64,000 nt of DNA from NCBI RefSeq assembly GCF_003590795.1, contig NZ_QYUL01000003.1:186001-250000 (forward strand). Direction: 5' to 3'. A program made the translations under genes and the position numbers. Origin of the DNA: Azospirillum cavernae. Its GTDB lineage: Bacteria; Pseudomonadota; Alphaproteobacteria; Azospirillales; Azospirillaceae. Every line of letters begins with the position of its first letter. The first letter of the stretch is position 1. The notes under the pieces were generated by a model, which searched no databases, was not told the origin of the DNA, and saw only the letters and a program-made list of their open reading frames with translations. Of this stretch, positions 3,001-64,000 are shown piece by piece.

Positions 3001-3054
3001 CATCAGCAGCGAGGTGCCGACCGGGCGGTGGATGAAGGGGGTGGAGAGCGCCAT
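1..3054 (-). CDS. mdtC: RND multidrug efflux permease, MdtC-like (3' end cut by window edge)
   Basis: Inner-membrane permease of a tripartite RND pump that uses proton flow to expel drugs or other small molecules. About 1018 codons are visible and only the last few are missing, since the left edge already shows the conserved end of the last helix (GELRRPLGIA, then TLYTTPIVYL). The N terminus (MALSTPFIHRPV) and the helix-4 motif VGFVVDDAIV, with its paired aspartates for proton relay, are intact. The ATG at 3054 lies 6 bases after the stop of the upstream permease, so the two are co-transcribed and probably co-translated. Two different permeases side by side are the mark of MdtBC/MuxBC heteromultimers. 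Substrate unknown. An outer-membrane channel gene may lie beyond the left edge. Confidence 0.9.
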   Translation of the reverse strand, partial: MALSTPFIHRPVGTSLLMIGLLLVGMVAYRFLPVAPLPQVEFPTILVSASLPGASPETMAASVATPLERRLARIAGVSEMTSNSTSGSTSVIIQFDLNRDIEAASRDVQAAINAAGGDLPADLPNPPRLRRLNPSDAPIMVLAVTSATLPPGEVFSLAETVIGQRLSQIQGVSQVTINGAEKTAVRVRANSAAAASMGVSLENIRSAIANANANSPKGSFDGAEESWSIGASDQLFGADAYRNLIVSEKNGAIIRLGDVAEVIEAPENSRTAAWYDGQRAVLINVMKQTGSNVVETVDAIRAELPVLEGWMPPSVHIAIRSDRTPMIRASVADVQKTLAITVAMVVMVMALFLRRLWATIIPATAVPLSLAGTFAAMWAIGYSLDNFSLMALTISVGFVVDDAIVVIENVVRHIEKGEKPFAAAIKGARQVAFTVVSISLSLVAVFIPILFMGGIMGRLFREFAVTLSVAIAVSAVVSLTLTPMMCAHLLTAEAERKPPGRVGRALDWIGDRLFGLYADGLDWVLAHRRIMLGVTFAIIGVSVWLYGQVPKGFVPQQDTGMLNGFSDPPPDISFQAMLARQRALQDAISGDPAVESVGASIGGGGPGGTYSGTVFVALKPRAERDELSVILPRLRQRAARVPGVQLFLTPVQDIRMGGRQGRSQYLYSLQDTDINALNLWAPRLVEKLRTLPELVDVANDRQNGGVQANVVVDRDAASRLGVSLSALEATLYDAFGQRQVSTMYLMQNQHKVVLEVDPKDALGPDALKRIHVPGRSGLVPLSTVASVTIGNQAASIQHQSGFPVANLTFDLAPDVSLSQATQVIARAAEDIGMPASIRAGFQGTARAFEQSQSSQPFLIVAALLTIYVVLGVLYESLIHPLTILSTLPSAGLGALIALILTGYELSIVAMIGLILLIGIVKKNAIMMIDFALEAERERGLSPFDAIREAALVRFRPIMMTTIAALLGAVPLAFDYGTGGELRRPLGIAIIGGLLVSQMLTLYTTPIVYLTLEKLALGR

Positions 3055-3060
3055 CGCCGC

Positions 3061-7631: not shown

Positions 7632-7653
7632 GATGTCCTGACCGTCGCTCAGC

Positions 7654-7671
7654 GTCTCGTGATCCAGAGAC
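7654..7671. promoter_or_regulatory. Inverted repeat upstream of the efflux operon
   Basis: GTCTC and GAGAC separated by eight bases, 23 to 40 bases upstream of the mdtA-like start. The position fits a repressor site for the pump operon, but no adjacent regulator gene is present and the arms are short, so this is only a candidate. Confidence 0.25.
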
Positions 7672-7719
7672 CCTTGATACGGCTATCAACGGCGGAATCG
7701 TCGGTCGGTTTCGAGTTTT

Positions 7720-8877: not shown

Positions 8878-8918
8878 GGGGCGATTCCCAGGTCGTTTGT
8901 TGGGCTGCGGCGGCCCGC

Positions 8919-9572
8919 TCACCCCACCAAACCGGCGGCGAGGTTGACGCCCAGAGCCAGAACGGCGGTGTTGAACAGGAAGGACAGGGCGCCGTGAAGC
9001 AGCACGACCCGGCGCGCCGCCGCCGTGCGCGTCACCACGTCCGACACCTGCGCCGTCATGCCGATGGTGAAGCTGAAATAGAGGAATTCCAGATAGTCCG
9101 GCTGTTCGTTGCCGGGGAAATCCAAGTTTTTCGGCGTGTCCTGTTCGTCGCCATCCAGCCAGTAATCATGGGCGTAATGCTGGGCGAAAAAGACGTGCAA
9201 GAAGATCCAGGACAACAGCACGGTGACGGCGGCCAGCCCGGCGGCGGCCCCGGCGTGGGGCGAACCTTTGGCGGCGATCAACTCGACCCCGATGGCGACC
9301 AGAGACGCGGCGGCGACCAGCACGGCCCCGATCAAAACACCCCATTTCCCTGGATCAAGCACTTGGGCGCGGTGGCGGATCGACGCCACATTCGCCCGGA
9401 ACATCAGCCGGGTGGACAGAAGGATGTAGAGAGCGACGCCAACGTCCCATCCGACCAGCCCGGCGGTGACGGGCCGCAGCCACAACAGCCCCGCCGCCCC
9501 GGTCAGCAGGGCGACTCCCAAGGCGGTCAACAGGGAAGGGCGGTTTCCCAGATGGCGCAGGCTGTGCCGCAT
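8919..9572 (-). CDS. DUF1345 family integral membrane protein
   Basis: 217 residues with about five hydrophobic helices and the DUF1345 hallmark in the last third: AHDYW, LDFPG, then PDYLEFLYFSFTIGM and QVSDV. The biochemical role of the family is unknown. The ATG at 9572 has a strong GGAGGG upstream and follows the stop of the VTT-ATP-grasp gene by 16 bases. Its own stop is interlocked with a possible GTG of the downstream hydrolase. The tight spacing suggests the three proteins share an envelope task. Confidence 0.88.
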   Translation of the reverse strand: MRHSLRHLGNRPSLLTALGVALLTGAAGLLWLRPVTAGLVGWDVGVALYILLSTRLMFRANVASIRHRAQVLDPGKWGVLIGAVLVAAASLVAIGVELIAAKGSPHAGAAAGLAAVTVLLSWIFLHVFFAQHYAHDYWLDGDEQDTPKNLDFPGNEQPDYLEFLYFSFTIGMTAQVSDVVTRTAAARRVVLLHGALSFLFNTAVLALGVNLAAGLVG

Positions 9573-9588
9573 CCGCCCTCCGCTGGGA

Positions 9589-46522: not shown

Positions 46523-46657
46523 TTTGTCCCTATGGCCTATGCGGCTTGGCTAGGCAGGGTCGCGCGGAACGCCACCTTGACGCTTGCCACGGCGCCGCCG
46601 ATGATCCACAAACCGCGCTGGTTGCAATCTTGGCGGTGGGGGGTGAGCCTTAACGCC

Positions 46658-48883
46658 ATGGTTGCACGATCCGTTTTGCCGTCCTGGCCTGACCGATGGC
46701 TCTCTCACCTGCGCGCGAGTCGCCCCTTGAGACTTCTTTTTTTGATTGGCGTCTTGGCGCTGGCCGCCATTGTGGCGGGAACGGCTCAGTACACCCAAAT
46801 TTTGCGCGACAAGGAGATCGACGGGGCCAAGCGCGAGTTGGCGACGCTCAACCTGTCGCTGGCCGAACAAACCGCGCGCGCGCTTCAGAGCGTCGATCTC
46901 GTGCTGACCAGCGTCATCGACCAGATGAAGGCCGAAGGGGTGGCGACGCCCGAGGATGTCGTCCGTCTGCGCTCCGACCAGGACACCCATGAGCTGCTGA
47001 AAGCCAAAGCGTCGGTGGTGCCGCAGCTCGACGCGGTGACGCTGATCGGGGCGGATGGGCAATTGGTGAATTTCTCGCGCTTTTACCCGCCGCCGGCCAT
47101 CAACGTGGCCGAGCGCGATTTCTTTCTCGCCCTGAAGGACCGCAACACCGACGAGCCGTTTCTCAGCCAGCCGGTGGAAAATCGCGGCAGCGGCGCTTGG
47201 ACCGTCTATCTGACCCGCCGGGTCAGCGCGCCCGATGGCCGCTTTCTTGGGCTGGCGCTGGGGGCCATCGACCTTGATTATTTCCAGCGGCTCTATCGCG
47301 GTTTGCGGGTTGGCGACGCGACCAGCAGCATCAGCCTGTGGCGGCGCGACGGCATTTTGCTGACCCGTCATCCGGCGCTGCCCGGCGTCGGCAAGCCGGT
47401 TGGCCAACGTCTGTTCCTGGACGTGCTGTCAAAGGCCGACTCCGGGGTGTTTCTGGCCCCGGACGGGTTGGACGCCGGGACGCGGGTGGTGGCGACGCGG
47501 GCGGTGCAGGCCTATCCGGTGGTGGTCAACGTCACGCGGACGCTGGTGGATGTGTTGGCGGGCTGGCGCGCGCAGGTCGCCACCATCGTCGTGGCCGGGC
47601 TGGTCGGTTCGTTGGCGGTGCTGTTGGCGCTGTGGGCGCTGGCCCGCCAGTTCTGGGCCTATGAGGCGACGGCCCAGGCGATGGCCGAGGCGCGGCAGGC
47701 GGTGGAGGGGCGTGAGCAGGCCGAACAAGCGTTGCGGCAGGCCCAGAAGATGGAGGCCATCGGCCAGTTGACCGGCGGCGTCGCCCATGATTTCAACAAT
47801 CTGCTCCAAGCCATTGGCATCAATTTGCACGTCATCGAAAGCCGCAGCCAGGACGACCGCGTGGTCGGCCCCGCCCGCATGGCGCTTCAAGCGGTGGAGC
47901 GCGGGGCGACGCTGACCCAGCATCTTCTGGCTTTTTCGCGGCGTCAGCAGCTTCGCCCGGAGATCGTCGATGTGGACGTGCTGACCGCGCGGGTGGCGGC
48001 GCTGTTGGAGCGGACGCTTGGCGGTGCGGTGCGGGTGGAGCGCTGGTCGGCCCCCGGCCTGTGGTCGGCGATGATCGACGCCAACCAGTTGGAAATGGCG
48101 CTGATGAATCTGGCGATCAACGGGCGCGACGCCATGCCGGGCGGCGGCACTCTGACCATCGCCGCGACCAACCGGGCGGTCGGCGAGTCGTCCATCGCGG
48201 GCCTGTCGTCCGGCGAGTATGTCGCCATCGCCATGCGCGACACCGGGACCGGCATGACGCCGGAGGTGGCGGCGCGCGCCTTTGAACCCTTTTTCACCAC
48301 CAAAGAGGTTGGGCGCGGCACCGGCCTGGGCCTCAGCATGGTGCATGGGTTGGCGACCCAATCGGGCGGGGGCGTGGCGATTGACAGCCAACCCGGCGGC
48401 GGAACCACGGTGACGCTGTTCCTGCCCCGCGCAACGGCGAAACTGGTGGCGATTGCCCCGGCGTCGTCGTCGGCTTCGGCGCGGGCGCCGGTGGGCGAGG
48501 CGGCGAGCCTCTGCTCGATCCTTTTGGTGGATGATGAGGATCTGGTGCGCGGCGCCACCGCCGATTTTCTGACTCAGGCCGGTTTCGCCGTGCAAGAGGC
48601 GGCGGACGCGGAAACCGCGCTTGGTTTGCTCGATCAAGGGCCGCCGGTTGACGTGATCGTCACCGACCACATGATGCCGGGGATGAACGGGTTGGACATG
48701 GTCCGCGCCATCCGGGCGCGCAACAACCCCATTCCCATTCTGATGGTCACGGGTTACGCCGAGGAGTTGATGGCGGAGGTGGTGGATGTGGCCGATGGCT
48801 TGTCGCTGCTGGCCAAGCCGGTGATGCCGCAGAGCCTCGTCCGCTCCATCCGCTCTATGGCGGCGATGAATTCAGCGGCATGA
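46658..48883 (+). CDS. Hybrid sensor histidine kinase with periplasmic double-Cache domain
   Basis: 741 residues: helix near 26-45, extracytoplasmic PDC/dCache-type sensor (about 50-300, with [28 protein letters not shown]), second helix about 310-332, short coiled coil, kinase core with His377 in [16 protein letters not shown] box [11 protein letters not shown] boxes DTGTGM and [14 protein letters not shown], and a C-terminal receiver with Asp670 in VTDHMMPG. Such kinases usually sense small extracellular ligands. The frame is open to 46532, but only the ATG at 46658 has a plausible ribosome site (GGTGAG). Its stop overlaps the hypF start. No separate response regulator is next to it. Confidence 0.87.
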
Positions 48884-51111
48884 TGCGGCGTTTGCAAATC
48901 CGGGTGCGCGGGCTGGTCCAAGGCGTGGGGTTCCGCCCCCATGTCCACGCGCAGGCCCTGCGCTTTGGCGTCACTGGCTGGGTGCGCAACGATTCCCAGG
49001 GCGTGCTGATCGAGGGACAGGGGGACGGCGTCGCCGCCTTTGTCGAGGCGCTGACCGCGCAGGCCCCGCCGCTGGCCCGCATCGACGCGGTGGAGAGCGT
49101 CGAATGTCCGGCGCTGGCGGGAGAAACCAGCTTCGCAATCCACGCCAGCGACGCCAGCGGGGTGGTCGCCACCGGCGTGGCCGCCGACGCCGCCGTCTGC
49201 CCGGCCTGTCTGGCCGAGCTGTTCGATCCCAGCGACCGGCGGCATCGCTACGCCTTTTTGAACTGCGCCCATTGCGGCCCGCGCTTCACCATCACCCGCC
49301 GCTTGCCCTACGACCGACCGCAAACGGCGATGGCGGGCTTTCCGCTCTGCCCGGCTTGCGCGGCGGAGTATGACGATCCGACCGACCGGCGCTTTCACGC
49401 CCAGCCCACCGCCTGCCCGGATTGCGGCCCCCGACTGTCCTGCCCGCCGGAGGTCATCCTCGACCATCTGCGCGCCGGGCGGATCGTCGCGCTGAAAGGG
49501 TTGGGCGGCTTTCATCTGGTCTGCGACGCGACGCGGGCCGACACGGTGGAACGCTTGCGCCGGGTCAAGCAGCGCAACGGCAAGCCCTTCGCCCTGATGG
49601 TCGCCAACGCCGCCTCCGCCGCCCGCTTCGTCGCTTTGTCGGCGGAGGAGCGCGCCCTGTTGACCGGCCACGCCCGCCCGATCCTGCTGGCCCGGCGGCG
49701 CGCGGACGGCCCGGTGCTGGCCCCCGGCGTCGCCCCCGATCTGGCGTGGTTGGGCGTCATGCTGCCCTACACGCCGCTGCATCACCTGCTGTTTCACGAG
49801 GCGGCGGGGCGACCGGCTGGTACGGGCTGGATGGAGGAACCGCAGGATCTGGCCCTGGTGATGACCTCGGCCAACCCCGGCGGCGAACCGCTGGTCATCG
49901 ACAATGACGAGGCGCGGGCGCGGCTGGGCGGCATCGCCGACGTCATCGTCGATCATGACCGGCCCATCATCGTCCGCGCCGACGATTCGGTGACGCGCTG
50001 GCTGGCTGGCGCCCCCGCCGTGCTGCGCCGGGGGCGTGGGCGGGTTCCCGAACCGATCCGGCTGGCCCATCCGGTTCCGCCGATTCTGGCGGTCGGCGGC
50101 CATTTGAAGACCGCGATTTGCGTGACGCGGGGGGACGAGGCGTTCCTGTCGCAGCACATCGGCGACCTCGACAACGCCGCGACCATCGGCTTTTTCGAGG
50201 AGACGGTCGGCCATCTGCTGCATCTGCTGGGGGTGGCGCCGGTGGCGGTCGCCCACGACGCCCACCCTGATTTTCCCAGCACCCGCTTTGCCGAACGCTT
50301 GGGCCTGCCCATTGTGGCGGTGCAGCATCATCACGCCCATCTCGCCGCCGTTTTGGCCGAACATCGGGTGACGGAACCGACGCTTGGTCTGGCGCTCGAC
50401 GGCTTCGGGCTGGGGCCGGGGGGCGAATCCTGGGGCGGGGAGCTGTTGCGGGTCGAGGGCGCGGGCTTCACCCGGCTTGGGCGCTTGGCCCGGCTGGCCC
50501 AACCCGGCGGCGACGTCGCCGCCCGGCAGCCGTGGCGGATGGCGGCGGCGGCCCTGGCGCGGATGGGCCGGGCGGAGGAGATTCCCGCCCGCTTCGCCGC
50601 CCATGGCCCGGCGGAGGGGGTTCGGCGGATGATCGAGCGGGGGATCAACGCGCCGCTGACCAGCTCTTGCGGGCGCTGGTTCGACGCGGCTTGCGGGATC
50701 CTCGGCGTGCGCCCGCTGGCCGGGTTTGAGGGCGAGGCGCCGATGGTGCTGGAATCGCTGGTCCACCGTCCGCGCGTCGCCGAGGGGACGTGGAGCGTCC
50801 GCGACGGCGTGCTCGACCTCACCCCCCTGCTGGAGCGTCTGTTGACGGCGACCGACGCGACGGAGGGGGCCGAGCTGTTCCACGGAACCTTGATCGCCGC
50901 GTTGATCGCCTGGGCGCTGCCGGAGTTGCGAACGCGCGGGGAGCGGCGGATCGCGCTGTCGGGCGGTTGCCTGATGAACGCCGTTCTGGCGGCGGGATTG
51001 GTGGACGGCTTCGCCGCCGCCGGGGTGGCGGCGCTGCTGCCGCGTCAGGCCCCGGCGAACGACGGCGGTCTGGCGCTGGGGCAGGCCTGGGTCGCGGCGC
51101 GGACTCTGTGA
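48880..51111 (+). CDS. hypF: Carbamoyltransferase HypF (hydrogenase maturation), orphan
   Basis: 743 residues. N-terminal acylphosphatase domain (RVRGLVQGVGFRPHV), two zinc-finger pairs (CPAC/CAHC and CPAC/CPDC), a YrdC-like domain (about 195-380, KQRNGKPFALM) and a Kae1-like carbamoyltransferase domain (HHHAHLAAVLAEH, LDGFGLGPGG, LSGGCLMN). HypF turns carbamoyl phosphate and ATP into a carbamoyl-adenylate and passes it to HypE for making the cyanide ligands of [NiFe]-hydrogenase. No hydrogenase or other hyp gene is in this window, and the start is locked to the stop of a sensor kinase (ATGA), which is an unusual setting. Confidence 0.93.
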   Translation: MMRRLQIRVRGLVQGVGFRPHVHAQALRFGVTGWVRNDSQGVLIEGQGDGVAAFVEALTAQAPPLARIDAVESVECPALAGETSFAIHASDASGVVATGVAADAAVCPACLAELFDPSDRRHRYAFLNCAHCGPRFTITRRLPYDRPQTAMAGFPLCPACAAEYDDPTDRRFHAQPTACPDCGPRLSCPPEVILDHLRAGRIVALKGLGGFHLVCDATRADTVERLRRVKQRNGKPFALMVANAASAARFVALSAEERALLTGHARPILLARRRADGPVLAPGVAPDLAWLGVMLPYTPLHHLLFHEAAGRPAGTGWMEEPQDLALVMTSANPGGEPLVIDNDEARARLGGIADVIVDHDRPIIVRADDSVTRWLAGAPAVLRRGRGRVPEPIRLAHPVPPILAVGGHLKTAICVTRGDEAFLSQHIGDLDNAATIGFFEETVGHLLHLLGVAPVAVAHDAHPDFPSTRFAERLGLPIVAVQHHHAHLAAVLAEHRVTEPTLGLALDGFGLGPGGESWGGELLRVEGAGFTRLGRLARLAQPGGDVAARQPWRMAAAALARMGRAEEIPARFAAHGPAEGVRRMIERGINAPLTSSCGRWFDAACGILGVRPLAGFEGEAPMVLESLVHRPRVAEGTWSVRDGVLDLTPLLERLLTATDATEGAELFHGTLIAALIAWALPELRTRGERRIALSGGCLMNAVLAAGLVDGFAAAGVAALLPRQAPANDGGLALGQAWVAARTL

Positions 51112-52472: not shown

Positions 52473-53603
52473 TTACGGCGTCGCCGAGGGCAGCGCCGCA
52501 GCGGGCGGCAGGGGCGGGGTGTTGGACGGCGGGTCGTTCGCCGGTGTGGTTGGCATGGTCGTGGTGGGCAATGCGGCGGTGGGCAGGGGGGCGGTCGGCA
52601 ATGCGGCGGTCGGCAGCGAGGTCGGCAACGGCGCGGCTGGTTGTTGCGGCGCGGCCTCGCGCGCTGGGGCCGCCGTCGGCTTGGCGTCGTCGGCGGTGTT
52701 CAGGATGACCGGCAGACCGTCGCGCCCGCCGATGATGATCGTCTTGGCGTTGGGGGAATCGGCGAAGGCCCGCGTCGCTTCGATGCCGCGCAGGCGCAGA
52801 TATTCCGGCGTGATGGTGTGGGCGACGGTTTCCTGGAAGTCGCGAATACCCTCGGCCTCGATCCGCTTCCGGTCCCGCTCCTTGGCCTCGCGGGCGACGC
52901 GGAAGTCGTATTCCTGCATGATCTGCTGCTGTTCCATCTTGCGGTCGATGGCCTGACGGACCAGCGGCGGCAGGGCGATGCCGCTGACCAGCACATCCTC
53001 CACCCGTATCATCGCCTCGCCCGCATGTTCGGGCGCGATGTCGAATTCGTCGGGGGGGACCGGGAAATCCTTGCGCGCGTGGGTCAGCAGGAAATTCTGA
53101 ATGTCGGCGCGGTCAAAGGAATAGAAGGTCTCCGGGTTGCGTTCCGAAATGAACTCATACACCAGGCTGGCCATTTTGGGATGAACCAGGGTTTCGGCGT
53201 AGGCCGGCCCGGTCAGCTTGTGCAGCAGACCGGCGGCGGGCGGGTTGACGCGGTAGCGGATCGCCACCTCCACCGTCAGCGCCATGCCGTTGGCCGACAC
53301 CGCTTCGTATTTGCGGTTGTCGTTGCGCAGACGCACGTCATACAGGGTCACGACGTCCCACGGGAAAATGACGTGCATGCCTTCCTTGAAGACATGTTCG
53401 GTCACGGTTCCGCCGAGAAAACGCAGCCACAACACGCCGACGTGACCGGCGGGCACCTCGATGAAGATCGACGGGCCAAGCGCGAACAGCGCCATCAGCG
53501 TGGTCAGAATCAGCGCGTAAAAGGAAATGGCGTGCCGCTTCATCCACAGCCGGGCGCGCTGTGGGGCGGATGGGTGGTGGGGGGCCAAATCGATGGTGGT
53601 CAT
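52473..53603 (-). CDS. SPFH/band 7 (prohibitin-like) membrane protein
   Basis: 376 residues: one N-terminal membrane helix (about 27-48), an SPFH/band 7 domain (about 50-200, VPAGHVGVLWLRFLGG, VEVAIRYRVNPPAAGLL), a charged helical stalk (VRQAIDRKMEQQQIMQEYDF) and a Pro/Thr/Ala-rich tail with near-repeats of LPTAALPT and LPTAPLPT (about 325-350). Such proteins form large membrane-bound rings that organise lipids and proteases such as FtsH. The start overlaps the stop of a 65-residue membrane protein gene (ATGA), a likely partner. No FtsH or NfeD gene is adjacent. Confidence 0.87.
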   Translation of the reverse strand: MTTIDLAPHHPSAPQRARLWMKRHAISFYALILTTLMALFALGPSIFIEVPAGHVGVLWLRFLGGTVTEHVFKEGMHVIFPWDVVTLYDVRLRNDNRKYEAVSANGMALTVEVAIRYRVNPPAAGLLHKLTGPAYAETLVHPKMASLVYEFISERNPETFYSFDRADIQNFLLTHARKDFPVPPDEFDIAPEHAGEAMIRVEDVLVSGIALPPLVRQAIDRKMEQQQIMQEYDFRVAREAKERDRKRIEAEGIRDFQETVAHTITPEYLRLRGIEATRAFADSPNAKTIIIGGRDGLPVILNTADDAKPTAAPAREAAPQQPAAPLPTSLPTAALPTAPLPTAALPTTTMPTTPANDPPSNTPPLPPAAALPSATP

Positions 53604-53912: not shown

Positions 53913-54602
53913 TCAGGCCGCGACGGCGTCGGGAACCGCGTCAGGAACCACGCCCTTGCGGCGGCGCAGCTCGTCATACTTCTCGCGGAAATAGGTTTTC
54001 ACCTTCTCCGGGTCGAAGGTCAGGAAGGTGCCGCCCGAGGCGAAATGCTGCTGGAACACCTTGCCAAGCGCGTAGGTGAAGGCGGCGTTGAACAGCGGCT
54101 GCGTGGCGAAGCGCGTGACCGTGCCGACCACCGGAACGCTGCGCAGCGCCGCGTTGACCGCCGCCGAACCCAGGATGCCGCCGCCCAGCAGAGCCGGAGT
54201 GACGCTGGCCAGCAGGGTTCCCACCGCCGAACGGCCGATGTCGGCGCGGAAGCTGACGCCATAGACGTCCGACAGCTCTTTCAACAGACGGAGCTGAACG
54301 ACGGCCACGGCGGCGGTGTCCACGAAGGCCACCGGGATGACCCCGGCGGCGGCCGACAGCAGCACATGGTTGCGGATGATGGTGTGGGCGTGACGCTCGC
54401 GCTCGCTCTCAACGGTCGCTTCGGAGGCGACCGCTTCCGGGGCCGCGTCCAGGGCCGCAGCCTCGGGCGCGGCTTCCGACGCGGTTTCGGCGGCGCTGTC
54501 CGTCACGAACGGGGTGGTCGGGGCGGCGGCCGCTTCGACCACCGGATCCGGCGTGAACGGCGGGGCGCCGTCGCCGGTCGGCGGGTCTTTCTTAATGACC
54601 AT
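53913..54602 (-). CDS. DUF697 (YcjF-like) family protein
   Basis: 229 residues. The first 90 are a low-complexity Ala/Glu/Pro/Ser stretch (ETASEAAPEAAALDAAPEA); the rest is a DUF697 domain with two hydrophobic segments (HVLLSAAAGVIPVAFVDTAA and SAVGTLLASVTPALLGGGIL) and a basic C-terminal helix (YFREKYDELRRRK). Members are membrane-associated and often linked with GTPases or stress genes; the function is unknown. The ATG at 54602 has GGGAG about nine bases upstream. It is about 115 bases upstream of the SPFH unit on the same strand, so co-transcription is possible. Confidence 0.82.
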   Translation of the reverse strand: MVIKKDPPTGDGAPPFTPDPVVEAAAAPTTPFVTDSAAETASEAAPEAAALDAAPEAVASEATVESERERHAHTIIRNHVLLSAAAGVIPVAFVDTAAVAVVQLRLLKELSDVYGVSFRADIGRSAVGTLLASVTPALLGGGILGSAAVNAALRSVPVVGTVTRFATQPLFNAAFTYALGKVFQQHFASGGTFLTFDPEKVKTYFREKYDELRRRKGVVPDAVPDAVAA

Positions 54603-54799
54603 CGGTTGGTGCTCCCAAAAAAGCATCGGTGAAGACCGCGCGCCAAACCGGCGCGCGGCGTGTGACGGCCCCAAGGGGACGGCCCGCGTTGAACCGCCGA
54701 CGGGTGGAACCGACGGAGTCCTGATATGGGCTAACGAATGAACGCGTCATCGTCAAATCGGCAACAGCGCAATCGGAGGGGGTGAGGACAATCATGATT

Positions 54800-55534
54800 T
54801 TATAAGTCGAGCGGAAGAATGGTTTTTACAATTTCACGGCGGTGCTGAGTCAGGAAAAAATGGTCGCCCGGCAGAGCGCGCAGGGTGAATCCGGCCCCCG
54901 CCGCTCGCTCCCAACCCGCCACGTCGGCCACGCTGACCTCGGGATCCTCGGTTCCGGCGAAGGCGAACAGGGGAATCGGCAGGGGAGCGGGGGACGGATC
55001 GGAAAACCCGTCGGACATGGCGAAATCGGCGCGCAGCAGCGGCAGCATCAGATCCATCAACTCGGCGCAGGCCAGAACCTCCGGCGGGGTGCCGCCCAGC
55101 GCGTGCAGACGGTCGCGGAACTCCGCCTCGCTCAGGCTGGCGGTCGGCGCGCGGCGAAGCGGCTGGTCGGGCGCCCGTCGGCCCGAGACGGCCAGCAGCC
55201 GGGGCGGGCGCCCGTCCGCGATCAGGGCGCGCGCGGTGGCGTAGGCCAAGGCCGCCCCCAGCGAATGGCCGAACAGGATCAACGGACGGTCCAACCGGCT
55301 GGCCAGCGCGTCGAGGATCGCCGGAACCGCCGCCGCCACCTCGGTCAGGCAGGGTTCGCCGATGCGGCTTTCACGGCCCGGCAGGCGGACGGCGATGATC
55401 TCGTCGTCCGGCGCGGCGTGGAGATGCCAATCGCGGTACAGCGCCGCCCCGGCCCCGGCGTAGGGGAAACAGACCAGCGTGCGGCGCGGCTGGGAAACCG
55501 GGCGGAAGCCTTGCAGCCAGGGATTGCGGGTCAT
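54800..55534 (-). CDS. Type II thioesterase of the NRPS locus
   Basis: 244 residues, alpha/beta hydrolase of the external (type II) thioesterase class that clears mis-loaded carrier proteins. N-terminal LVCFPYAGAGAALYRDW is the class hallmark; nucleophile serine in LFGHSLGAALAY, Asp in AGTEDPEV and His in GDHFFL. The ATG at 55534 overlaps the upstream exporter stop (ATGA); the open frame above it is read-through from the exporter gene. Together with the exporters and NRPS genes it forms one minus-strand operon. Confidence 0.92.
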   Translation of the reverse strand: MTRNPWLQGFRPVSQPRRTLVCFPYAGAGAALYRDWHLHAAPDDEIIAVRLPGRESRIGEPCLTEVAAAVPAILDALASRLDRPLILFGHSLGAALAYATARALIADGRPPRLLAVSGRRAPDQPLRRAPTASLSEAEFRDRLHALGGTPPEVLACAELMDLMLPLLRADFAMSDGFSDPSPAPLPIPLFAFAGTEDPEVSVADVAGWERAAGAGFTLRALPGDHFFLTQHRREIVKTILPLDL

Positions 55535-57186
55535 GCCGCGCCTCCGTCTTGCGTCGAGGCGGGGCCGACGCGCCCGGCTTCGATCCGGCCCTCGTTCATG
55601 TGGTACACGCGGTCGGCCAGACCGAACCAACGGTCGTCGTGGGTGACGCAGATGACGATTTTTCCCTTGGCCTTCATCTCGGGCAGCAACTCTTCATAAA
55701 AGACACGGCGGAAATGGGGATCCTGGTCGGCGGCCCATTCGTCGAGGACGATGACCGGCTTGTCCTCCATCTGGGCGACGACCAGGGCCAACCGCTTGCG
55801 CTGGCCGGTGGACAGATCGACGGTGGTGAAGGCCCCATCCTGAACGTTGGCCTTGTCCTGCATCTCCAACCGCTCCAGCAGGGCGCGCGCGCGGGCCGGG
55901 TCGGGATCGGCGACGCCGTAGAGCCGCCGCGACAGGTGATAGTCCGAGAAAATCGCCGAAATCTGGTCGCGGTAGCTTTGCATCCGCTCCGGCTCCACCG
56001 GCTCGCCATCGGCCAGCAGGCTGCCGCCGCTGAGCGGCATCAGTCCGGTCAGCAGCCGCAGCATGGTCGATTTGCCGGACCCGTTGCCGCCGGTGACGAA
56101 GGTGATCTCCCCGGCGTGGAACTCCGCCGACAGCGGTCCGACCGAAAAGATCGGGTTCCCCGCCGCGTCGGTGTAGGAAAAGCTGGCGTTGCGCAAGGCG
56201 ATCCGCTGCGGCGGTTGGTCGAGCGCGCGGGCAGTTTCGTCGGGGGAATCGCCCGCCGCCGTGCTCAGCAGCGTCGCCATGCTTTCGATGTTGGCCAGGG
56301 CGAATTCGGTCTGCGTCACCAGCGGGGTGACGTGGGCCAGCGTGCCGACCGGCCCGACGATGAACAGCGCCGCCATGGTGGCCGGGACCACCACCTCGTG
56401 ATAGCTGGTGGTGAACAGCGGCACGACGAAGACCATCAAGCCGACCAGCACGTAAAACAGGGCCTGGAGCAGGGCGAATTCGCGGCCCCACTGCGCCTTC
56501 ATGCCGGTGTTGACCCGCCGCGCGGTGTCCGAGGCGTGGGCGAGATCGTCGATCACCCCGTCGGCCCGCCGCACGCTCATCCGCACCTCTTTGAAGCCGC
56601 GCAAAAGGTCGGTCAGCCCGTCGAACACGGACATCTCCGCCCCCATCGCCGCCCGCATCGACTGGCCAAGCGCCGCCATCCGCGAAAAGCGCAGGGCCAC
56701 GGCGAATCCGGCGAAGCTGAAGGCCATCACGCAGGCGATGGGCGACAGCCACGCCAGATAAAGGGCGAGGAAGACCAGCATCGTCGCCTGCTGCCCGCCG
56801 ATCACCAGCATCGGCAGGGTGCGGGCCAGCGTTTGGGTATCCTGCGTCAGGGCGCCGTGCAGGGCGGCGCGGCCCACCCGTTCGACCGTCACCAGATCGG
56901 CCCGGCGCACCGCGTCGAACAGGCGCACGCGCAGCCGGTGGATCAGCCCCTCGACGTCCTGCGAGGCGGTGACGAGCACGTAATTGTGGGTCACGCCGAA
57001 CAGGGTGATGGTGACGGCGAACAGCAGCAGCAGGCGGACGCTGAGGGTTCCCTTGGCGGCGTCCTTGGCGGCGAGATCGACGACCCAGAGAAGGACCGAG
57101 GTGGACAGCGCCGACAGCGCGGTCATGATCGCCAGCGACCGCAGATTTTGCGGAATTTCCTGCCGGATCAGACGGATCAGCCTCAC
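55531..57186 (-). CDS. Cyclic-peptide-type ABC exporter, membrane-ATPase half-transporter (second of two)
   Basis: 551 residues: six membrane helices (about 1-300), then an ATPase domain with Walker A TGGNGSGKST, signature LSTGQRKRLALV and Walker B VIVLDEWAADQDP. The signature and DEWAADQDP belong to the PvdE/SyrD group that moves siderophore precursors or cyclic peptides into the periplasm. Interlocked with the neighbouring exporter gene and the thioesterase by ATGA overlaps. Paralogue of the gene at 57183-58832. Confidence 0.9.
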   Translation of the reverse strand: MRLIRLIRQEIPQNLRSLAIMTALSALSTSVLLWVVDLAAKDAAKGTLSVRLLLLFAVTITLFGVTHNYVLVTASQDVEGLIHRLRVRLFDAVRRADLVTVERVGRAALHGALTQDTQTLARTLPMLVIGGQQATMLVFLALYLAWLSPIACVMAFSFAGFAVALRFSRMAALGQSMRAAMGAEMSVFDGLTDLLRGFKEVRMSVRRADGVIDDLAHASDTARRVNTGMKAQWGREFALLQALFYVLVGLMVFVVPLFTTSYHEVVVPATMAALFIVGPVGTLAHVTPLVTQTEFALANIESMATLLSTAAGDSPDETARALDQPPQRIALRNASFSYTDAAGNPIFSVGPLSAEFHAGEITFVTGGNGSGKSTMLRLLTGLMPLSGGSLLADGEPVEPERMQSYRDQISAIFSDYHLSRRLYGVADPDPARARALLERLEMQDKANVQDGAFTTVDLSTGQRKRLALVVAQMEDKPVIVLDEWAADQDPHFRRVFYEELLPEMKAKGKIVICVTHDDRWFGLADRVYHMNEGRIEAGRVGPASTQDGGAA

Positions 57187-58832
57187 GCCGCACCCCCTTG
57201 CGGGACAACAAGTTCGCTCAAACGGCCTTCCTCCATGTGCAGGCGGCGGTCGGCGACGTCGAAATAATGATCGTCATGGGTGACGGCGATGATGGTCAGG
57301 CCGCGCCGTTTCAGCTCAGGCACGATCTCGCGGTAGAATTTCAGGCGGAAATGCGGATCTTGATCGGCGGCCCATTCGTCGAGGATCAGGATCGGCTTTT
57401 TCTCCAGAATGGCGGCGACCAGCCCCAGCCGCTTGCGCTGTCCGGCGGACAGGTCGCGCCGCCCAAAACGGTCGCCTTCCACAGCGGTGACGCGCTCCAT
57501 CTCCATCCAGCGCATCAGGGCGTCGGCCTCGGCCCGGTCGGGGCGATCCATGCCGTAGAGGCGGGCGAACAGGTGGAAATCGGCGAAGACGGTGGCCATC
57601 AGGGCGCGGTAGGCCGTCTGACGGCCCGGCCCGATGTCCACGCCATCCACCGTCAACCGCCCGCGCAAGGGGTGATAGAGGCCGGTCAGCAGCTTGATGA
57701 AGGTTGATTTGCCCGACCCATTGCCGCCGGTGACGAAAATCGTCTCGCCGCGCCGGATGGTCAGGTCGAAGGGGCCGACGGCGAAGCTTTGCTCCCCCGC
57801 CGGGGCGGGAAAGGCGAATTCGATCCCTTCCAGGCGGATCTCCTGGAAATCCTCGGGCACCGGCAAGGGCGGGGCGCTGGCCCCGGGTTCGGCCAGCCCG
57901 TCCAACTGGCTTTCCAGCTCGATCATGCGCCCGGCGGCAGAATCCGCCGCGCCCATCACCGCCATCGACTGCATCAGGCCGAACACCGGCGAGGCCATGA
58001 ACAGGATCGCCGCCGTCACCTTCACCACCTCCTGCCCGAAGGCGGACGAGTAGTTGGGCACGACGAAGACCACCATGCCCAGCATCATGTTGAAGGCGGT
58101 TTCGCCAAAGACGAACTGTTGCCAGCCGTGGAGATGCACCTCGTTGCGGGCGGTGGTGGTGGTCGCCGACACACGGTCGAAGGTGGCGTTGAGGTCGCGG
58201 CTGCGGGCGCTGTTCAGCCGTTGTTCCTTGAAGCCGTCGAACAGGTCCGACACGCTTTCAAACAGACCGGCCTCCTGGGCGTTCAACGCCTCCTGCCGTT
58301 CGTTCAGCGCCTGGCCCAGCCGGGTGTAGCTGACCGCGCCGACGGCCATCAGCGCGCCGATCAGCAGGAAGGCCAAGGGCGACAGGATGGCGATGTAAAC
58401 CAGCACCGCGACGATCATCAGGGCCGAGCGCAGCGACAACGCCAGAAACTGCGAATTCATCGAAATGACTTGGCAGCTCTGGGTGATGCTCTCGAACAGC
58501 GGGGTTTCGCCAAAGCGCTCCAGCTTCCACAGATCGGCGTGGCGCAGCCGGTCGAGCAGCCGCATGCGCAGGCCGTCGATGGCCTCCTCGATGTCGGCCC
58601 CCATGCGGGCGACCATCCAGCTTTCCGACGCGGTGTAGAGCAGCACGCAGACGACGAACAGCGCCGCCATCCACAGATTGACGACGTCGTTCTTGTTGTC
58701 GGCGATCTGCTGCGCCGCCTTGTTGACGACGGCCAGCACCACGGCGCTGCTGAGCGCCGAGGCCGCCGCGCCGACCACCAGACGCCGCAACGGCAGCGGC
58801 CCCAACCGGGCCAGCAACAGCGCGACGTTCAT
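57183..58832 (-). CDS. Cyclic-peptide-type ABC exporter, membrane-ATPase half-transporter (first of two)
   Basis: 549 residues with the same layout: six helices, Walker A TGGNGSGKST, signature LSAGQRKRLGLV and Walker B ILILDEWAADQDP. GGAGG lies six bases before the ATG. It starts 42 bases after the NRPS stop. It and the downstream exporter are similar along their length and overlap by four bases, so a heterodimer is likely, whereas PvdE and SyrD are normally single homodimeric genes. Confidence 0.9.
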   Translation of the reverse strand: MNVALLLARLGPLPLRRLVVGAAASALSSAVVLAVVNKAAQQIADNKNDVVNLWMAALFVVCVLLYTASESWMVARMGADIEEAIDGLRMRLLDRLRHADLWKLERFGETPLFESITQSCQVISMNSQFLALSLRSALMIVAVLVYIAILSPLAFLLIGALMAVGAVSYTRLGQALNERQEALNAQEAGLFESVSDLFDGFKEQRLNSARSRDLNATFDRVSATTTTARNEVHLHGWQQFVFGETAFNMMLGMVVFVVPNYSSAFGQEVVKVTAAILFMASPVFGLMQSMAVMGAADSAAGRMIELESQLDGLAEPGASAPPLPVPEDFQEIRLEGIEFAFPAPAGEQSFAVGPFDLTIRRGETIFVTGGNGSGKSTFIKLLTGLYHPLRGRLTVDGVDIGPGRQTAYRALMATVFADFHLFARLYGMDRPDRAEADALMRWMEMERVTAVEGDRFGRRDLSAGQRKRLGLVAAILEKKPILILDEWAADQDPHFRLKFYREIVPELKRRGLTIIAVTHDDHYFDVADRRLHMEEGRLSELVVPQGGAA

Positions 58833-58874: not shown

Positions 58875-61800
58875 TCACCCATTGACCGCATCCAACCAGC
58901 TCCGCAGACACTCCGCCAATTCGTCCAGCCAGGGCTTGACCAGCATTTGACCGTGGGTGCCTTCCATCCAGCGGAGAGTCACCCCGCCCGACGGCAACGG
59001 CCCCCAGCCGTTCAGCGGGTCGCCGGACACGCCGGGCGCCTGCTTGGTCTCGACCTTCGGACGAACGAGCAGCAGCTTGCCATCGAAGCCGCGCGGGCGA
59101 TAGCGCACGGCGGCCAAGCCGTTGTTTTGGAACAGCGCCATCAGGCGGCGCATCCCGGCGCGGTCCATGCCGTCGGGCAGGAAATGGCCGCCTTTGCCGC
59201 GTTCCAGGATCAAGTCGAGCCGCTGTTCGGGCGTCAGCGGGCGCAGGGTTTCGGCGTCGAACAGGCCCATTTCGTCGAACAGGGCGGCCAGATAGTCCGA
59301 CTCGTCCTTGCGCAGCAGGTCGCGCACCACGTCGGGAATCGCCACGCCGTCCAGCACGGCCACGGCGCGGACGTCCACGCCCGCGCGCTGCAACTGGCAA
59401 GCCGCCTCCCACGCCAGCAAGCCGCCGAAGCTCCAGCCCGCCACCGCCACCGGCCCGTCGGGAACGACGCTCTTGGTGGCGGCCAGATAGGCGGCGACCA
59501 TCGCCTCGACCGAGGCGTGGAGCGGCTGGCCTTCCTCCAGGCCATAGCTTTGCACCATGTAGACCGGCTGGTCGGGGCCAAGCGCCTCGGCCAACTCGCG
59601 GTAACACAGCACGTTGCCGCCGACCGGGTGGAAGCACAGCAGCGGCACGCGGGCGCCGCCCGCGTTGACGGCGACGACCGGATGCCAGTCCGACGCGTCG
59701 CCGCGCCGTTCGATCAACGCCGCCATGCTGGCGATTGTCGGGCTGGTGAACAGCTCGGCCAGCGGCAGGCGGACGCCGAACTCCTGTTCCGCCGCCGCCA
59801 GCAGCCGCACCGCCAGCACGCTGTGACCGCCCATGGCGAAGAAATCATCCTCGCCATCCTCCACCGGGATCTCAAGGATGCGGGTCCACAGCGCCGCCAG
59901 CCGCTTTTCGGCGTCGGTGGCGAGCGGGCGGCGGGTCCGGTTGGGGCGGGCGTTGAGTTCGGCGGGCGGCGGCAGGCGGCGCTCGTCGAGCTTGCCGTTC
60001 GCCGTCATCGGCAAATCGTCGATGGCGACCAGCCAGGACGGGATCATCCAGGCGGGCATGGCGGCGTCCAGATCGGCGCGCGCCTGCGTCGGGTCAAAAC
60101 CCGGACGCGGCACGACATAGGCGACAAGCAGTTTGTCGCCGTCGCCGCGCGGGTCGGCGGCGACCACGGCGACGCGCCCAACCAGCGGATGGGCGGCGAG
60201 CTTGGCCTCCACCTCGCCCAACTCGACGCGGTAGCCGCGAATCTTGACCTGCCGGTCCTCGCGCCCCAGGAATTGCAGCAGCCCGTTCGACAGACGGCGG
60301 GCCATGTCGCCGGTGCGATACCAGCGTCCCCCGGCCTCGTCGGTGACGAAGCGGCTGGCGGTTTGCGCCGCGTCGTTCAGATAACCGCGCGCCAGCCCGC
60401 GCCCGCCGATGCGGATTTCGCCCGGCATGCCGTCCGGCACCGGCCGCCCGGCGCCATCGGTCAGGTTGACCAGGATGTTGTCGAGCGGCAGGCCGATGGG
60501 CGGGGGCAGATGCTCGGCCCAATTGACGGCGGTCATGATGTGCTGGGTGGCGCAGACGCAGCTTTCGGTCGGGCCATATTGGTTGACGATTTTCAGATCG
60601 CCGTGGGCGGGCAGGCTGTAGAGGCGACGCAGCATCTCCGCCTTTACCGGCTCGCCGCCCAAAATGGCCAGCCGGACCGACGTCGCCGTTCCGCTGTCGT
60701 GCCAGTGATCGACCAGCATGGCGAACAGGCTGGGGGTGCCGTCGCAGACGTCCAGCCCGTGCGCCTCGATGAAGGCGTGCAGGCGGGCGGGGTCGCGGCG
60801 CGTCTCTTCGCCGGGGATGTGCAGGGCGTGGCCATTCAGCAGCGCCGTGCCGATGGAGTGCATCGACCCGTCGAAGGCGAAGGCGAAAATGCAGTTCAGC
60901 GCCAGTTGATCGCCCTGTCCCAGCGGCTCATACAGAGTCCGTTCGATGGCGTCGGCCAGATTGACCAGCGGGGCGTGTTCGACCAGGACGCCCTTGGGCG
61001 TTCCCGTGGTGCCGCTGGTGAAGATGACGTATGCGCCCTGGTCGGGCGTGATCGTGACGGCGGGCGGGCTGTCCGACAGGCTGTCGAGCGCGCGGCGCCC
61101 GTCGAGATGGCGGCATGGCTGCGCGCCCTCGCCCCGGCCATCCAGGCGGATGACCAGATCGAAGCCGTAGGGGGCCGGGTCGAAGCCCGGCGCGTCGATG
61201 GCGGAGAATTCCAGCGAGGGCTTTTCCGCCCGCTTGGCCGCCCAATCGCGGAAGAAGGCGGGGGGAACGAAGAAATCGTCGCTGAAATCCAGGCGCGTCG
61301 CGTAGCCCTGCCCGGCGTGGTCGCGGGCGAAGGCGGCCAGATCGGCGAGATAATCGTCCTTGCGCTCCAGATTCCACAGGCTGCCGAGGAACAGCGACCC
61401 GCCCGGCGCCAGCAGCGTCACCGCCTTGTCGAGAATGTCGGCGAGATAGCCGAAGCCGGGGAAGCTTTCGATCACGCTGTTGAAGACGATCAGATCCAGG
61501 CTGCCCGGCTCCAACAGGTCGATGTCGTGCGAGGTCAGATGACGCCCGGCGACGTGGGTCAGCCCCAGCTTGCGGGCGTTGGCCTCCACCCGCTCGGCGT
61601 TCAGGCGGCTGATGTCGGACGCGATGTAGGATCCGCACAGCGGCGCGACGTGCCGCATGGTGAAGCCTGACGCGCAACCGACCTCCAGCACCCGCGACGA
61701 CGGGGTGAGAAGCGGCGCGGTCTTGGCCCGCGCGTTGGCGCCGAAGGCGGCCAGCGCCTCGCCCGGAATCGGCAGCCCGGTGAAGGCGCTTTTCCAGCCG

Positions 61801-62378
61801 CCCGCCCCGGCGTCGTCGGCTTGCTCCCCGGCCAGATGGTCCCACAGCTCGGTGGACATCATCACGCCCGGCGCTTCGATCACCCGCTCGGCGTCGTCAG
61901 CGTCCAGGCACAGGCCGTGGCGCAGGGTCGGGCAGCGCCATTGCAGGCTGCGCAGGTCGCCCAGCGCGGCGGCCTCGGTGACGACGGCCTCGACCCCGGC
62001 GGCGTCGATCAGGGCGCGACGGCGGCTGAGCGGTTGGGTGGGGTCGAGCGGGACATAGACGCAGCCCGCCTTCATGACCCCGACCATGGCGGCGAGCGCG
62101 CCGCGCTGGCGGCCCATCATCACGCCGACGCGGGTTTCGCGCGCCAGCCCCTCGCGGGTCAGCCATTGGGCGATGCGGTTGGACCACAGGTCGAGCGCGC
62201 GGTAGCTGGTCGATCCAACCTCATCCACCAGGGCCGGGGCGTCGGGACGCCGGGCGGCCCAGGCGGCGACGCGCGAGACGATGGTGTCGGTCGATGGGGC
62301 GCTGGCGGCGGCGGTCAACGGAACGGGGGCCGCCGTCGGCTTGGCGCTGGCGTCAAAGACGAAATCGGCGATCCTCAT
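58875..62378 (-). CDS. Non-ribosomal peptide synthetase module: A(with inserted methyltransferase)-PCP-TE
   Basis: 1167 residues, no condensation domain. The adenylation domain begins near residue 30; motif A2 is MKAGCVYVPLDP (about 102), but motif A3 (TSGTTGTPKG) appears only near 450. The 270-residue insert between them carries a SAM-binding motif VLEVGCASG (about 230) followed by YIASDIS, so it is a methyltransferase placed between A2 and A3. A4 FAFDGS, A5 NQYGPTE and A10 NGKLD (Lys near 792) follow. The carrier protein has its phosphopantetheine Ser in MGGHS (about 850); a type I thioesterase ends the protein (Ser in GWSFGG near 980, His in GTHGQ near 1140). By family knowledge, inserts at this spot methylate the side chain of the loaded amino acid. 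The ATG overlaps the stop of the upstream NRPS. A hand-read specificity code (D-G-H-D-I-G-Q-V-C-K) is tentative and matched no code I know. Confidence 0.9.
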   Translation of the reverse strand: MRIADFVFDASAKPTAAPVPLTAAASAPSTDTIVSRVAAWAARRPDAPALVDEVGSTSYRALDLWSNRIAQWLTREGLARETRVGVMMGRQRGALAAMVGVMKAGCVYVPLDPTQPLSRRRALIDAAGVEAVVTEAAALGDLRSLQWRCPTLRHGLCLDADDAERVIEAPGVMMSTELWDHLAGEQADDAGAGGWKSAFTGLPIPGEALAAFGANARAKTAPLLTPSSRVLEVGCASGFTMRHVAPLCGSYIASDISRLNAERVEANARKLGLTHVAGRHLTSHDIDLLEPGSLDLIVFNSVIESFPGFGYLADILDKAVTLLAPGGSLFLGSLWNLERKDDYLADLAAFARDHAGQGYATRLDFSDDFFVPPAFFRDWAAKRAEKPSLEFSAIDAPGFDPAPYGFDLVIRLDGRGEGAQPCRHLDGRRALDSLSDSPPAVTITPDQGAYVIFTSGTTGTPKGVLVEHAPLVNLADAIERTLYEPLGQGDQLALNCIFAFAFDGSMHSIGTALLNGHALHIPGEETRRDPARLHAFIEAHGLDVCDGTPSLFAMLVDHWHDSGTATSVRLAILGGEPVKAEMLRRLYSLPAHGDLKIVNQYGPTESCVCATQHIMTAVNWAEHLPPPIGLPLDNILVNLTDGAGRPVPDGMPGEIRIGGRGLARGYLNDAAQTASRFVTDEAGGRWYRTGDMARRLSNGLLQFLGREDRQVKIRGYRVELGEVEAKLAAHPLVGRVAVVAADPRGDGDKLLVAYVVPRPGFDPTQARADLDAAMPAWMIPSWLVAIDDLPMTANGKLDERRLPPPAELNARPNRTRRPLATDAEKRLAALWTRILEIPVEDGEDDFFAMGGHSVLAVRLLAAAEQEFGVRLPLAELFTSPTIASMAALIERRGDASDWHPVVAVNAGGARVPLLCFHPVGGNVLCYRELAEALGPDQPVYMVQSYGLEEGQPLHASVEAMVAAYLAATKSVVPDGPVAVAGWSFGGLLAWEAACQLQRAGVDVRAVAVLDGVAIPDVVRDLLRKDESDYLAALFDEMGLFDAETLRPLTPEQRLDLILERGKGGHFLPDGMDRAGMRRLMALFQNNGLAAVRYRPRGFDGKLLLVRPKVETKQAPGVSGDPLNGWGPLPSGGVTLRWMEGTHGQMLVKPWLDELAECLRSWLDAVNG

Positions 62379-64000
62379 TCGGCGGCATCCTTGTTTGCGT
62401 GGTTCACAACCATCGAGGCGAATTGCTCCAGATAGGCCAGCCAGCGTTCCGCCGTGGCCCGGTCGAACAGGTCGGTGTCGTATTCCAGGGTCAGCGTGCC
62501 GCCGTCGCGCCGTTCGGTCAGGAACAGCAGCAGATCATGCTTGGCGGTCGGCGTGCGGATCGCCTCTTCCAAGGCCCCGCCAAAGGCCGGATCGACCGGG
62601 CGCCCGCCGCCGAACAGGCGGTCGCCCAGCGCGTCGGCGCAGGCCGCGTCGGCGTCCAGATCCTCAAAGCGCTGATACTCGAACACCACGTTGATGAGCG
62701 GCTGGCGGTTGGCGACGCGGCGGGGGGCGACGCTGCGGACCAGCAGATCGAACGGGAAGTCGCGATGGTCCATCGCCGCCATCATCGCGGCGTGGACCTG
62801 ATCGACCAGCGCCCCGAACTCCGTCTCGTCGCCGATGCGCACGCGCAGCGGCAGGACGTTGACGAAGAAGCCGATCAACCCCTCCACCTCGGCCCGGTCG
62901 CGCCCGGCGACGCCGAAGCCGATCACCAGATCGCCCTGGCGGGTCAGGCGGTAGAGCAGCCCGGCGAACATCGCCAAGGCGGTTGACGCGCTGGACGCCC
63001 CGCGCTGGCGGGCGTAGGCGGCCAAGCCCTGGGTCAGCGCGGCGGGCAGGCTGCGGCTGATGGTGTCGCCCCGGTGCGATTGCACCGCCGGGGCCGGACG
63101 GTCGGCGGGCAGCGCGACGCTGTCCGGCGCGTCCGACAGGATCGAGCGCCAATGGCGGGCGGCGTCGGTCCAGTCGCGGCGGTTCTGCCACACCGCGAAA
63201 TCGCGGTAGGCCACCGGCAGGGCGGGCAGCGGGGCCAGCGCGTCGCCGCCGGGACGGGCGGCGCGGTACAGCCTGCTCAACTCGCGCAGCAGGATGCGCG
63301 ACGACCAGCCGTCGCCGACGATGTGGTGCAGCACCAGCAGGACCAACCAGCCTTCGCCGTCACCCGGAAGATCGTTGTTCGGGTCGAGAAGGCTGGCCCC
63401 CATGCGGATGGCGCGGGCGCGCAGCAGCGGCGGCGCGGCGAGGTCGAAGGGGGTGGCCGCTTCGCGCCGGGCCAGACGCAGGCTTTCGCCGCGCGGGTCG
63501 GGGCTGGCCGACAGGTCGTCCACCGCCAGGGGCGGCACGGCGCTGGCGGCGACGCGCTGGCGGATCGCCCCGTCCTCTTCGATGAAGCCGGTGCGCAGAG
63601 TCTCGTGACGCTCCGTCAGGCGGGTCAGCGCCGTCCGCAGCGCGTCGAGATCGAGCGGCCCACCGAAGGGCAGGGCGAAGGTGATGTTGTAGGCGGCCCC
63701 GCCCCCGGCGGATTCCCCCTCCATCCGGCTGGCCAGATAGAGCCGCGCCTGGGCGTGGCTGGCCGGGTGGCTGGGGGCGTCGGGAACCGGAACGATGTCG
63801 TCGCTGGCCTCGGCGTCGTCGTCGATCAGGGCGGCCAGACCGGCGACGGTCGGGGCGGCGAAGAAGCCGCGCATCGACAGCCGCACCCCGGTCGCCTGGG
63901 CGATGCGGTTCACCACCTTGATCGCCAGCAGCGAATGACCGCCAAGATCGAGGAAATTGGCGTCGCGGTCGGCGATTTTGCGCCCAAACACCTCGCTGAA
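62375..64000 (-). CDS. Non-ribosomal peptide synthetase, C-terminal PCP-C part (5' part beyond window edge)
   Basis: The visible 541 codons are the end of a larger protein. They show a carrier protein (Ser in LGGHSLLAI) and then a full condensation domain: SHAQARLYL (C1), RHETLRTGF (C2), active-site HHIVGDGW (C3), GFFVNVLPLRVRI (C5) and FPFDLLV (C6-C7). The protein ends with the condensation domain, so it must hand its peptide to the loose A-PCP-TE protein encoded next, with a four-base ATGA overlap between the genes. Upstream domains and any tailoring genes are outside the window. Confidence 0.92.
   Translation of the reverse strand, partial: FSEVFGRKIADRDANFLDLGGHSLLAIKVVNRIAQATGVRLSMRGFFAAPTVAGLAALIDDDAEASDDIVPVPDAPSHPASHAQARLYLASRMEGESAGGGAAYNITFALPFGGPLDLDALRTALTRLTERHETLRTGFIEEDGAIRQRVAASAVPPLAVDDLSASPDPRGESLRLARREAATPFDLAAPPLLRARAIRMGASLLDPNNDLPGDGEGWLVLLVLHHIVGDGWSSRILLRELSRLYRAARPGGDALAPLPALPVAYRDFAVWQNRRDWTDAARHWRSILSDAPDSVALPADRPAPAVQSHRGDTISRSLPAALTQGLAAYARQRGASSASTALAMFAGLLYRLTRQGDLVIGFGVAGRDRAEVEGLIGFFVNVLPLRVRIGDETEFGALVDQVHAAMMAAMDHRDFPFDLLVRSVAPRRVANRQPLINVVFEYQRFEDLDADAACADALGDRLFGGGRPVDPAFGGALEEAIRTPTAKHDLLLFLTERRDGGTLTLEYDTDLFDRATAERWLAYLEQFASMVVNHANKDAAE

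Follow-up and report, generated by a model that had tools for sequence, protein, structure and literature searches.

The window, a stretch of 64,000 nucleotides from Azospirillum cavernae (contig C3, positions 186001-250000, of a 6.46-Mb genome), contains on its minus strand, at positions 58875-62378, an open reading frame with an ATG start for a nonribosomal peptide synthetase (NRPS) protein of 1167 amino acids, whose adenylation (A) domain is interrupted by a methyltransferase (MT). Most likely, with a probability of about 0.8 by our estimate, this protein is the terminal module of a thalassospiramide-type assembly line of NRPS and polyketide synthase (PKS) modules and works by the N-methylation and lactone closure proposed below. 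A first-pass annotation of this DNA had given the gene the same boundaries, which hold, without naming the strand.

A methyltransferase between motifs A2 and A3

Pfam split the AMP-binding domain of the protein and identified Methyltransf_12 at residues 231-329 (E 1.4e-11), followed by AMP-binding_C (722-796), PP-binding (826-889), and Thioesterase (912-1045). The order is A(MT)A-PCP-TE, in which the peptidyl carrier protein (PCP, or T in domain strings) precedes the thioesterase (TE), and whole-length relatives are of the same build. A terminal module ending in a thioesterase had already been proposed for this gene, in agreement with the Pfam result. The A-domain motifs lie at residues 108 (A2, YVPLDP), 454 (A3, TSGTTG), 601 (A5), 688 (A7), 705 (A8), and 794 (A10). 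The A2-A3 spacing is 346 residues, whereas this genome has seven uninterrupted A domains with both motifs matched by pattern, and their spacings are 70, 71, 72, 72, 73, 75, and 80 (an apparent chance match, LTPLSA, with a spacing of 232, was dropped). The excess is about 272 residues, very close to the 270 first estimated, and the position of the MT between A2 and A3 was thereby confirmed.

On the minus strand of the window, the first part of the A domain with A2 (about residues 20-164) occupies positions 61887-62321, the MT insert (about residues 165-432) positions 61083-61886, and the rest of the A domain, from A3 to A10 with the substrate pocket DGHDIGQVC (about residues 433-803), positions 59970-61082. 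The PCP (PF00550, GGHS) follows at 59712-59903 and the type I thioesterase (PF00975) at 58899-59645, with GWSFGG at residue 981, a candidate Asp at 1010, and a candidate His at 1142. The motif search also found the PCP serine motif, an acidic residue after motif I for binding of S-adenosylmethionine (SAM), and NSVIESFP. SAM motif I itself, VLEVGCASG (residues 230-238), is located at 61665-61691.

To collect relatives, residues 135-440 were used as a protein query against 7997 scored candidates of 0.55-1.75 times the query length, a range that misses inserts in longer NRPSs. The search gave 118 matches, which together with the query make 119 rows, and 101 of these carry an A2-A3 insert with motif I. 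The SAM-binding motif noted in the first-pass annotation is kept in homologues: motif I is present, with small changes, in 101/101 insert rows, and the domain search returns a methyltransferase. The motif reads GCASG instead of GxGxG, which could point to an inactive MT that leaves the residue unmethylated and is kept only for structure. We consider this very improbable, as GCASG is near-invariant across the family, including the rows from genera with N-methyltyrosine products, and as the dN/dS of the insert is about 0.05 in comparison to Azospirillum griseum (dN 0.021, dS 0.425, identity 96.3%). The value of about 0.31 in comparison to Nitrospirillum is the weaker figure. The insert is the best conserved of four segments compared with A. 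griseum (the first 139 residues are 77.5% identical) and ranks below the T-TE part in comparison to Nitrospirillum (72.0% versus 75.7%). Judged by the A. griseum alignment, the insert is under purifying selection, and the inactive MT was set aside on conservation and dN/dS.

The preceding modules and the proposed mechanism

The protein had been described as stand-alone and as lacking its own condensation (C) domain. However, the preceding gene, which encodes a 5677-aa NRPS-PKS, ends PCP-C (Pfam PP-binding and Condensation), and its stop overlaps the start of the terminal gene by 4 bases. The C domain of the terminal module is therefore not lacking; it is the last domain of the preceding protein, and its apparent absence is due to the gene split, which recurs across the family. 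This C-terminal end lies at 62375-64000 (minus strand), and the gene runs beyond the window to contig C3:265408, the cluster thus extending past the window edge. In the order of transcription, the cluster comprises a 1659-aa protein with the domains A-T-KS-AT-T (KS, ketosynthase; AT, acyltransferase), the 5677-aa protein, the terminal protein, two exporters, and a type II thioesterase. The 5677-aa protein begins with a TubC docking domain and continues C-T-C-A-T-C-A-T-KS-DH-KR-T-C-A-T-C (DH, dehydratase; KR, ketoreductase).

Nine genomes, including our own, were compared side by side for domain order, codes, and motifs. The order in our cluster is a Ser module, an AT-less KS-DH-KR, a Val-like module, and A(MT)-T-TE, and it is collinear with the marine clusters from the module before Ser through KS-DH-KR and the Val-like module to the MT module. 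The pocket DVWHFSLVD is identical in all nine genomes, directly before the KS in eight of them and on a separate gene in Chlorobium. The next A code is DAYWVGATF in our cluster, DAFFMGVTF in T. mesophila, and DAFFLGGTF in Oceanibaculum. By A-domain specificity codes, we take DVWHFSLVD to specify Ser and the other three to be Val-like. The alignment with Thalassospira, Oceanibaculum, and Tistrella covers the Cys and His motifs of the KS, the KS-KR interval, and both DH stretches (H-xxx-G and HPxLxD). The interval aligns in 9/9 genomes with H-xxx-G; seven of them have HPxLxD as the second stretch, and the exceptions are Chlorobium (HPGVLD) and Nitrospirillum (DPALLD). A match to the KR Tyr pattern was obtained in 7/9 genomes.

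In principle, the cluster could make a siderophore or an unrelated cyclic peptide, with the shared terminal module being a recombined piece. Both exporters match TIGR01194, a family that includes siderophore exporters, and the marine clusters have a different first half of the line. The collinearity from the module before Ser to the MT module makes such a product highly unlikely, and no iron-uptake family was found among the part of the neighbours that was scanned. A siderophore cluster had been considered because of the exporters and was set aside once the NRPS-PKS order had been read.

From the module order, the product of the thalassospiramide-type line should contain a Ser-derived enoic unit and a Val-like residue, and its last residue should be methylated and closed into a ring. 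This matches the thalassospiramides, in which the final two modules are described as providing valine and N-methyltyrosine and closing a 12-membered lactone (PMC3705361). We propose that the A domain would adenylate an amino acid, perhaps Tyr, and load it onto the adjacent PCP, and that the MT between A2 and A3 would methylate this carrier-bound residue on its alpha-amino nitrogen, with SAM as the donor. The C domain that ends the preceding protein would then join the ...-(Ser + C2 enoic acid)-(Val-like)- chain to the N-methyl residue. Lactone closure by the TE, with the hydroxyl of the Ser-derived unit as the acceptor, would release a small unsaturated ring. The domain order, the motifs, the collinearity, and the tree position are read directly from sequence, and from these we infer N as the target (not O or S), the identity of the residue, the ring closure, and the product.

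Backbone nitrogen or side chain

An A2-A3 insertion had been taken to mean O- or S-methylation of the side chain. The literature does not support this for the protein's own family: TtcC and TtmB of the thalassospiramide lines are listed in PMC11355689 as backbone N-methylating at A2-A3, and the same source lists the O-methylating insert of KtzH at A8-A9. When a profile of nine inserts was compared with solved structures, the best match was the backbone N-methylating A(M)A protein TioS of thiocoraline (PDB 5wmm, E 4.4e-31), followed by an MT-domain protein (1.3e-11). The MT core of TioS aligns with profile positions 52-273 and shares NSVxxxFP; TioS differs in that its MT is inserted at A8-A9, belongs to another clade, and gives no match to the A2-A3 insert over profile positions 1-51.

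A tree was calculated from 76 MT cores: 20 of the 36 loci of the TE family (see below), the window, 25 of 47 other A2-A3 rows, all 29 A8-A9 rows, and TioS. The A8-A9 inserts lie on one side of a branch (100/100), and so does the TE family (100/99), with the window inside. The window MT is positioned between Tistrella mobilis (basal) and the rows of Thalassospira, Oceanibaculum, and Fodinicurvata. PMC5577590 names these genera as having thalassospiramide clusters, that of Fodinicurvata without a detected product. The window MT is therefore bracketed by relatives from N-methyltyrosine lines. On these sequence comparisons, the insert MT probably methylates the backbone nitrogen.

Methylation of the last residue on its side chain (O or S) is less likely than on the backbone, and we regard it as unlikely. 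It would have parallels in TioN and MarQ, which share the A2-A3 site (PMC8949500) and are S-methylating according to reviews (PMC11355689, PMC8949500), both having been compared by description only, and it could fit with a substrate pocket that is altered relative to Thalassospira and Tistrella. It conflicts with the listing of the protein's own family as N-methylating at A2-A3 (PMC11355689), with the published thalassospiramide genera on both sides of the window in the tree, and with TioS as the best solved match. Of the earlier view that the last residue is methylated on its side chain before release or cyclisation, the timing is thus likely to be right, but the side chain is not the probable target.

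Several points weigh against backbone N-methylation in a thalassospiramide-type line. A survey of 2008 put all N-MTs known to it at A8-A9 (PMC2613160), and the N-methylation by TtcC and TtmB appears to be deduced from product structures. The MT tree lacks the A2-A3 S-methylating TioN and MarQ as well as KtzH, and the nearness to N-MTs is thus not set against side-chain MTs. In the tree, the MTs inserted at A2-A3 and those at A8-A9 fall into separate clades, well apart; the assignment of the chemistry therefore rests on the orthologues, as kinship to the A8-A9 N-MTs alone does not fix it. The DH query scored in 6/9 genomes, with no match in Nitrospirillum, Oceanibaculum, and Tistrella, although the interval aligns. 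One locus, L031 from a soil metagenome-assembled genome (MAG), has the gene but no NRPS genes before it. The pocket of the last A domain, DGHDIGQVC, which is common to 29/119 rows, differs at 4 of 9 positions from DGVDVGAVS of Thalassospira and at 5 of 9 from DAIDVGAVG of Tistrella, which also differ from each other. Because of this difference, the last residue may not be Tyr, and we see about an even chance that it is.

Relation to TtcC and TtmB, and hosts outside the marine genera

The protein resembles TtcC and TtmB in being an A(MT)A-PCP-TE protein of about 1165 aa with the MT at A2-A3, in having its C domain as the last domain of the protein before it, and in following Ser, KS-DH-KR, and Val-type modules. 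The identity over the protein is 52-53% to the members of T. mesophila, O. pacificum, and T. mobilis; judging by the species, we take the T. mobilis locus to be TtmB. The differences are the last A pocket (DGHDIGQVC, not DGVDVGAVS or DAIDVGAVG), the two TIGR01194 exporters that adjoin the terminal gene, and the start of the line, where the first protein, A-T-KS-AT-T, lacks an initial C domain and the second opens with a C-T module without an A domain. No Condensation match was found by Pfam in the first protein of the window cluster. An initial C domain, taken as the N-acylating starter, is present in the lines of O. pacificum, T. mesophila, and Tistrella. Like the window, A. griseum, Nitrospirillum, and a Pleomorphomonas MAG have lines that start without a C domain, and an Acidobacteriota MAG starts with C-A.

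The kind of system is already known, and within the literature searched, the new aspects are the range of hosts and the changes at the ends of the line. Among the literature matches listed, there was no report that brings Azospirillum and thalassospiramide together, and none of thalassospiramide in four host genera; an earlier description elsewhere is possible. As a tentative proposal, to which we give somewhat less than even odds as a whole, a branch outside the published marine genera (Azospirillum, Nitrospirillum, and the Pleomorphomonas MAG, with relatives in Chlorobium and Acidobacteriota) would make rings with the same Ser-derived Michael acceptor. The product of Azospirillum, Nitrospirillum, and the Pleomorphomonas MAG would be without the usual N-terminal fatty acyl group because the line starts without an initial C domain, its last residue might be another N-methylated amino acid, and the MTs of the A2-A3 clade in many phyla would be backbone N-methylases. 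Thalassospiramides from marine bacteria are described as calpain inhibitors (PMC4350077, PMC5577590), and their ring binds calpain covalently (PMC4350077). If the proposal is true, an unreported class of small covalent inhibitors would come from soil, freshwater, and plant-associated bacteria, and the insertion site would fail to predict the methylation chemistry. Independently of this proposal, the probable N-methylation in the TE family corrects, with a family-wide case, the working rule that an A2-A3 insert means side-chain methylation. The analysis also points to thalassospiramide-type biosynthesis in bacteria from habitats other than marine ones. Among them are named strains of Azospirillum and Nitrospirillum that could be examined for the product directly.

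Family and distribution

Named members of the family include Thalassospira, Nitrospirillum, Telmatospirillum, Pleomorphomonas, Magnetovirga, Chlorobium-group, and acidobacterial records, as well as 'TtbB' (the source's name) of Tistrella bauzanensis. The nearest named record found is that of A. griseum, with 96% identity in the insert and 90% over the protein. In a genome scan with patterns from A2-A3 members, 80 of 131 relatives were kept, which gave 79 loci. The TE family comprises 36 loci (L027-L061 and L067); the TE was seen in 34, and the other two are truncated. In 26/36, the upstream gene ends KS-(DH)-KR-T-(T)-C-(A)-T-C, with no A domain scored at this end in L045, L048, L050, and L059. 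In L045 (positions 2-9580, Thalassospira sp. HF15), the upstream reading frame is split within the last C domain. In L054, the contig start cuts the upstream gene and leaves T-C-A-T-C. L058 on the Tistrella plasmid pTM1 lies at the start of the record with the remaining genes at the other end; the set is the same, with the final A domain unscored. Seven of the 36 loci belong to Chlorobiaceae, six with a different gene order and one truncated.

Insert sites were assigned by whether the A3 and A5 motifs lie upstream or downstream of the MT. In total, 183 rows were placed at A2-A3 (195.6-490.9 bits) and 29 at A8-A9 (73.0-135.7 bits), with 3 unplaced on truncated contigs; the 183 rows were gathered with A2-A3 queries, and some proteins are counted twice, under a protein-search (P) and a locus (L) name. 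Even with these limits, the initial remark that interrupted A domains are uncommon needs softening. The 18 rows of the 119 without the A2-A3 insert have the MT further on, all 18 being placed at A8-A9 by the A3/A5 rule; the A8 motif was found before the MT in 14 of these P rows, and one L row is collinear with TioS. Within Azospirillaceae, the insert was found at more than 480 bits in 4/82 genomes, with one more distant match (227 bits). Another 12/82 genomes gave matches of 93-129 bits, and the 11 examined were all placed at A8-A9. The distribution of the insert in Azospirillaceae is scattered.

Ahead of the MT core, the stretch LQWxCPxL...LCLD...MSxELWDH (profile positions 1-50, window 61812-61961) differs between the two sites. 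The profile match starts at position 1-5 in 183/183 A2-A3 rows and at 29-54 in the 29 A8-A9 rows. This stretch is a linker tied to the insertion site and is perhaps in part the A domain's own strand before A3.

A second broad set of A2-A3 MT inserts, L062-L105 (44 loci in many phyla), is found mostly in longer NRPS frames and mostly without a TE match; L067 falls in this number range and is counted with the TE family. Hosts include Clostridium, Paenibacillus, Chitinophaga, Kordia, Aminicenantes, and Verrucomicrobia, among others. The insert could not be placed in two of the 44 loci, L092 and L096, owing to short contigs.

Neighbouring genes

The two exporters are cyclic-peptide-export-type ABC transporters on the minus strand at 57183-58832 (TIGR01194, 291.5 bits) and 55531-57186 (302.9 bits), both above the cut-off of 286.2. 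The type II thioesterase follows at 54800-55630 (minus strand; PF00975, E 8.8e-42 over residues 50-271).

The genome contains a second large NRPS cluster outside the window, at contig C1:1282328-1309452 (L024 and L025), with at least seven A domains. The single MbtH-like gene found in the genome, at C1:1279244, lies about 3 kb before it. As the genome's one such gene sits by the other NRPS cluster, a dependence of the terminal module on an MbtH-like protein is not arguable.

Beside the type II thioesterase, the minus strand carries a DUF697/TIGR01620-like gene (53913-54674, below the TIGR01620 cut-off) and a Band_7 gene (52473-53603). Ordinary genes near the cluster are those of a HypF carbamoyltransferase (48880-51111) and a hybrid histidine kinase with a dCache sensor (46532-48883), both on the plus strand.

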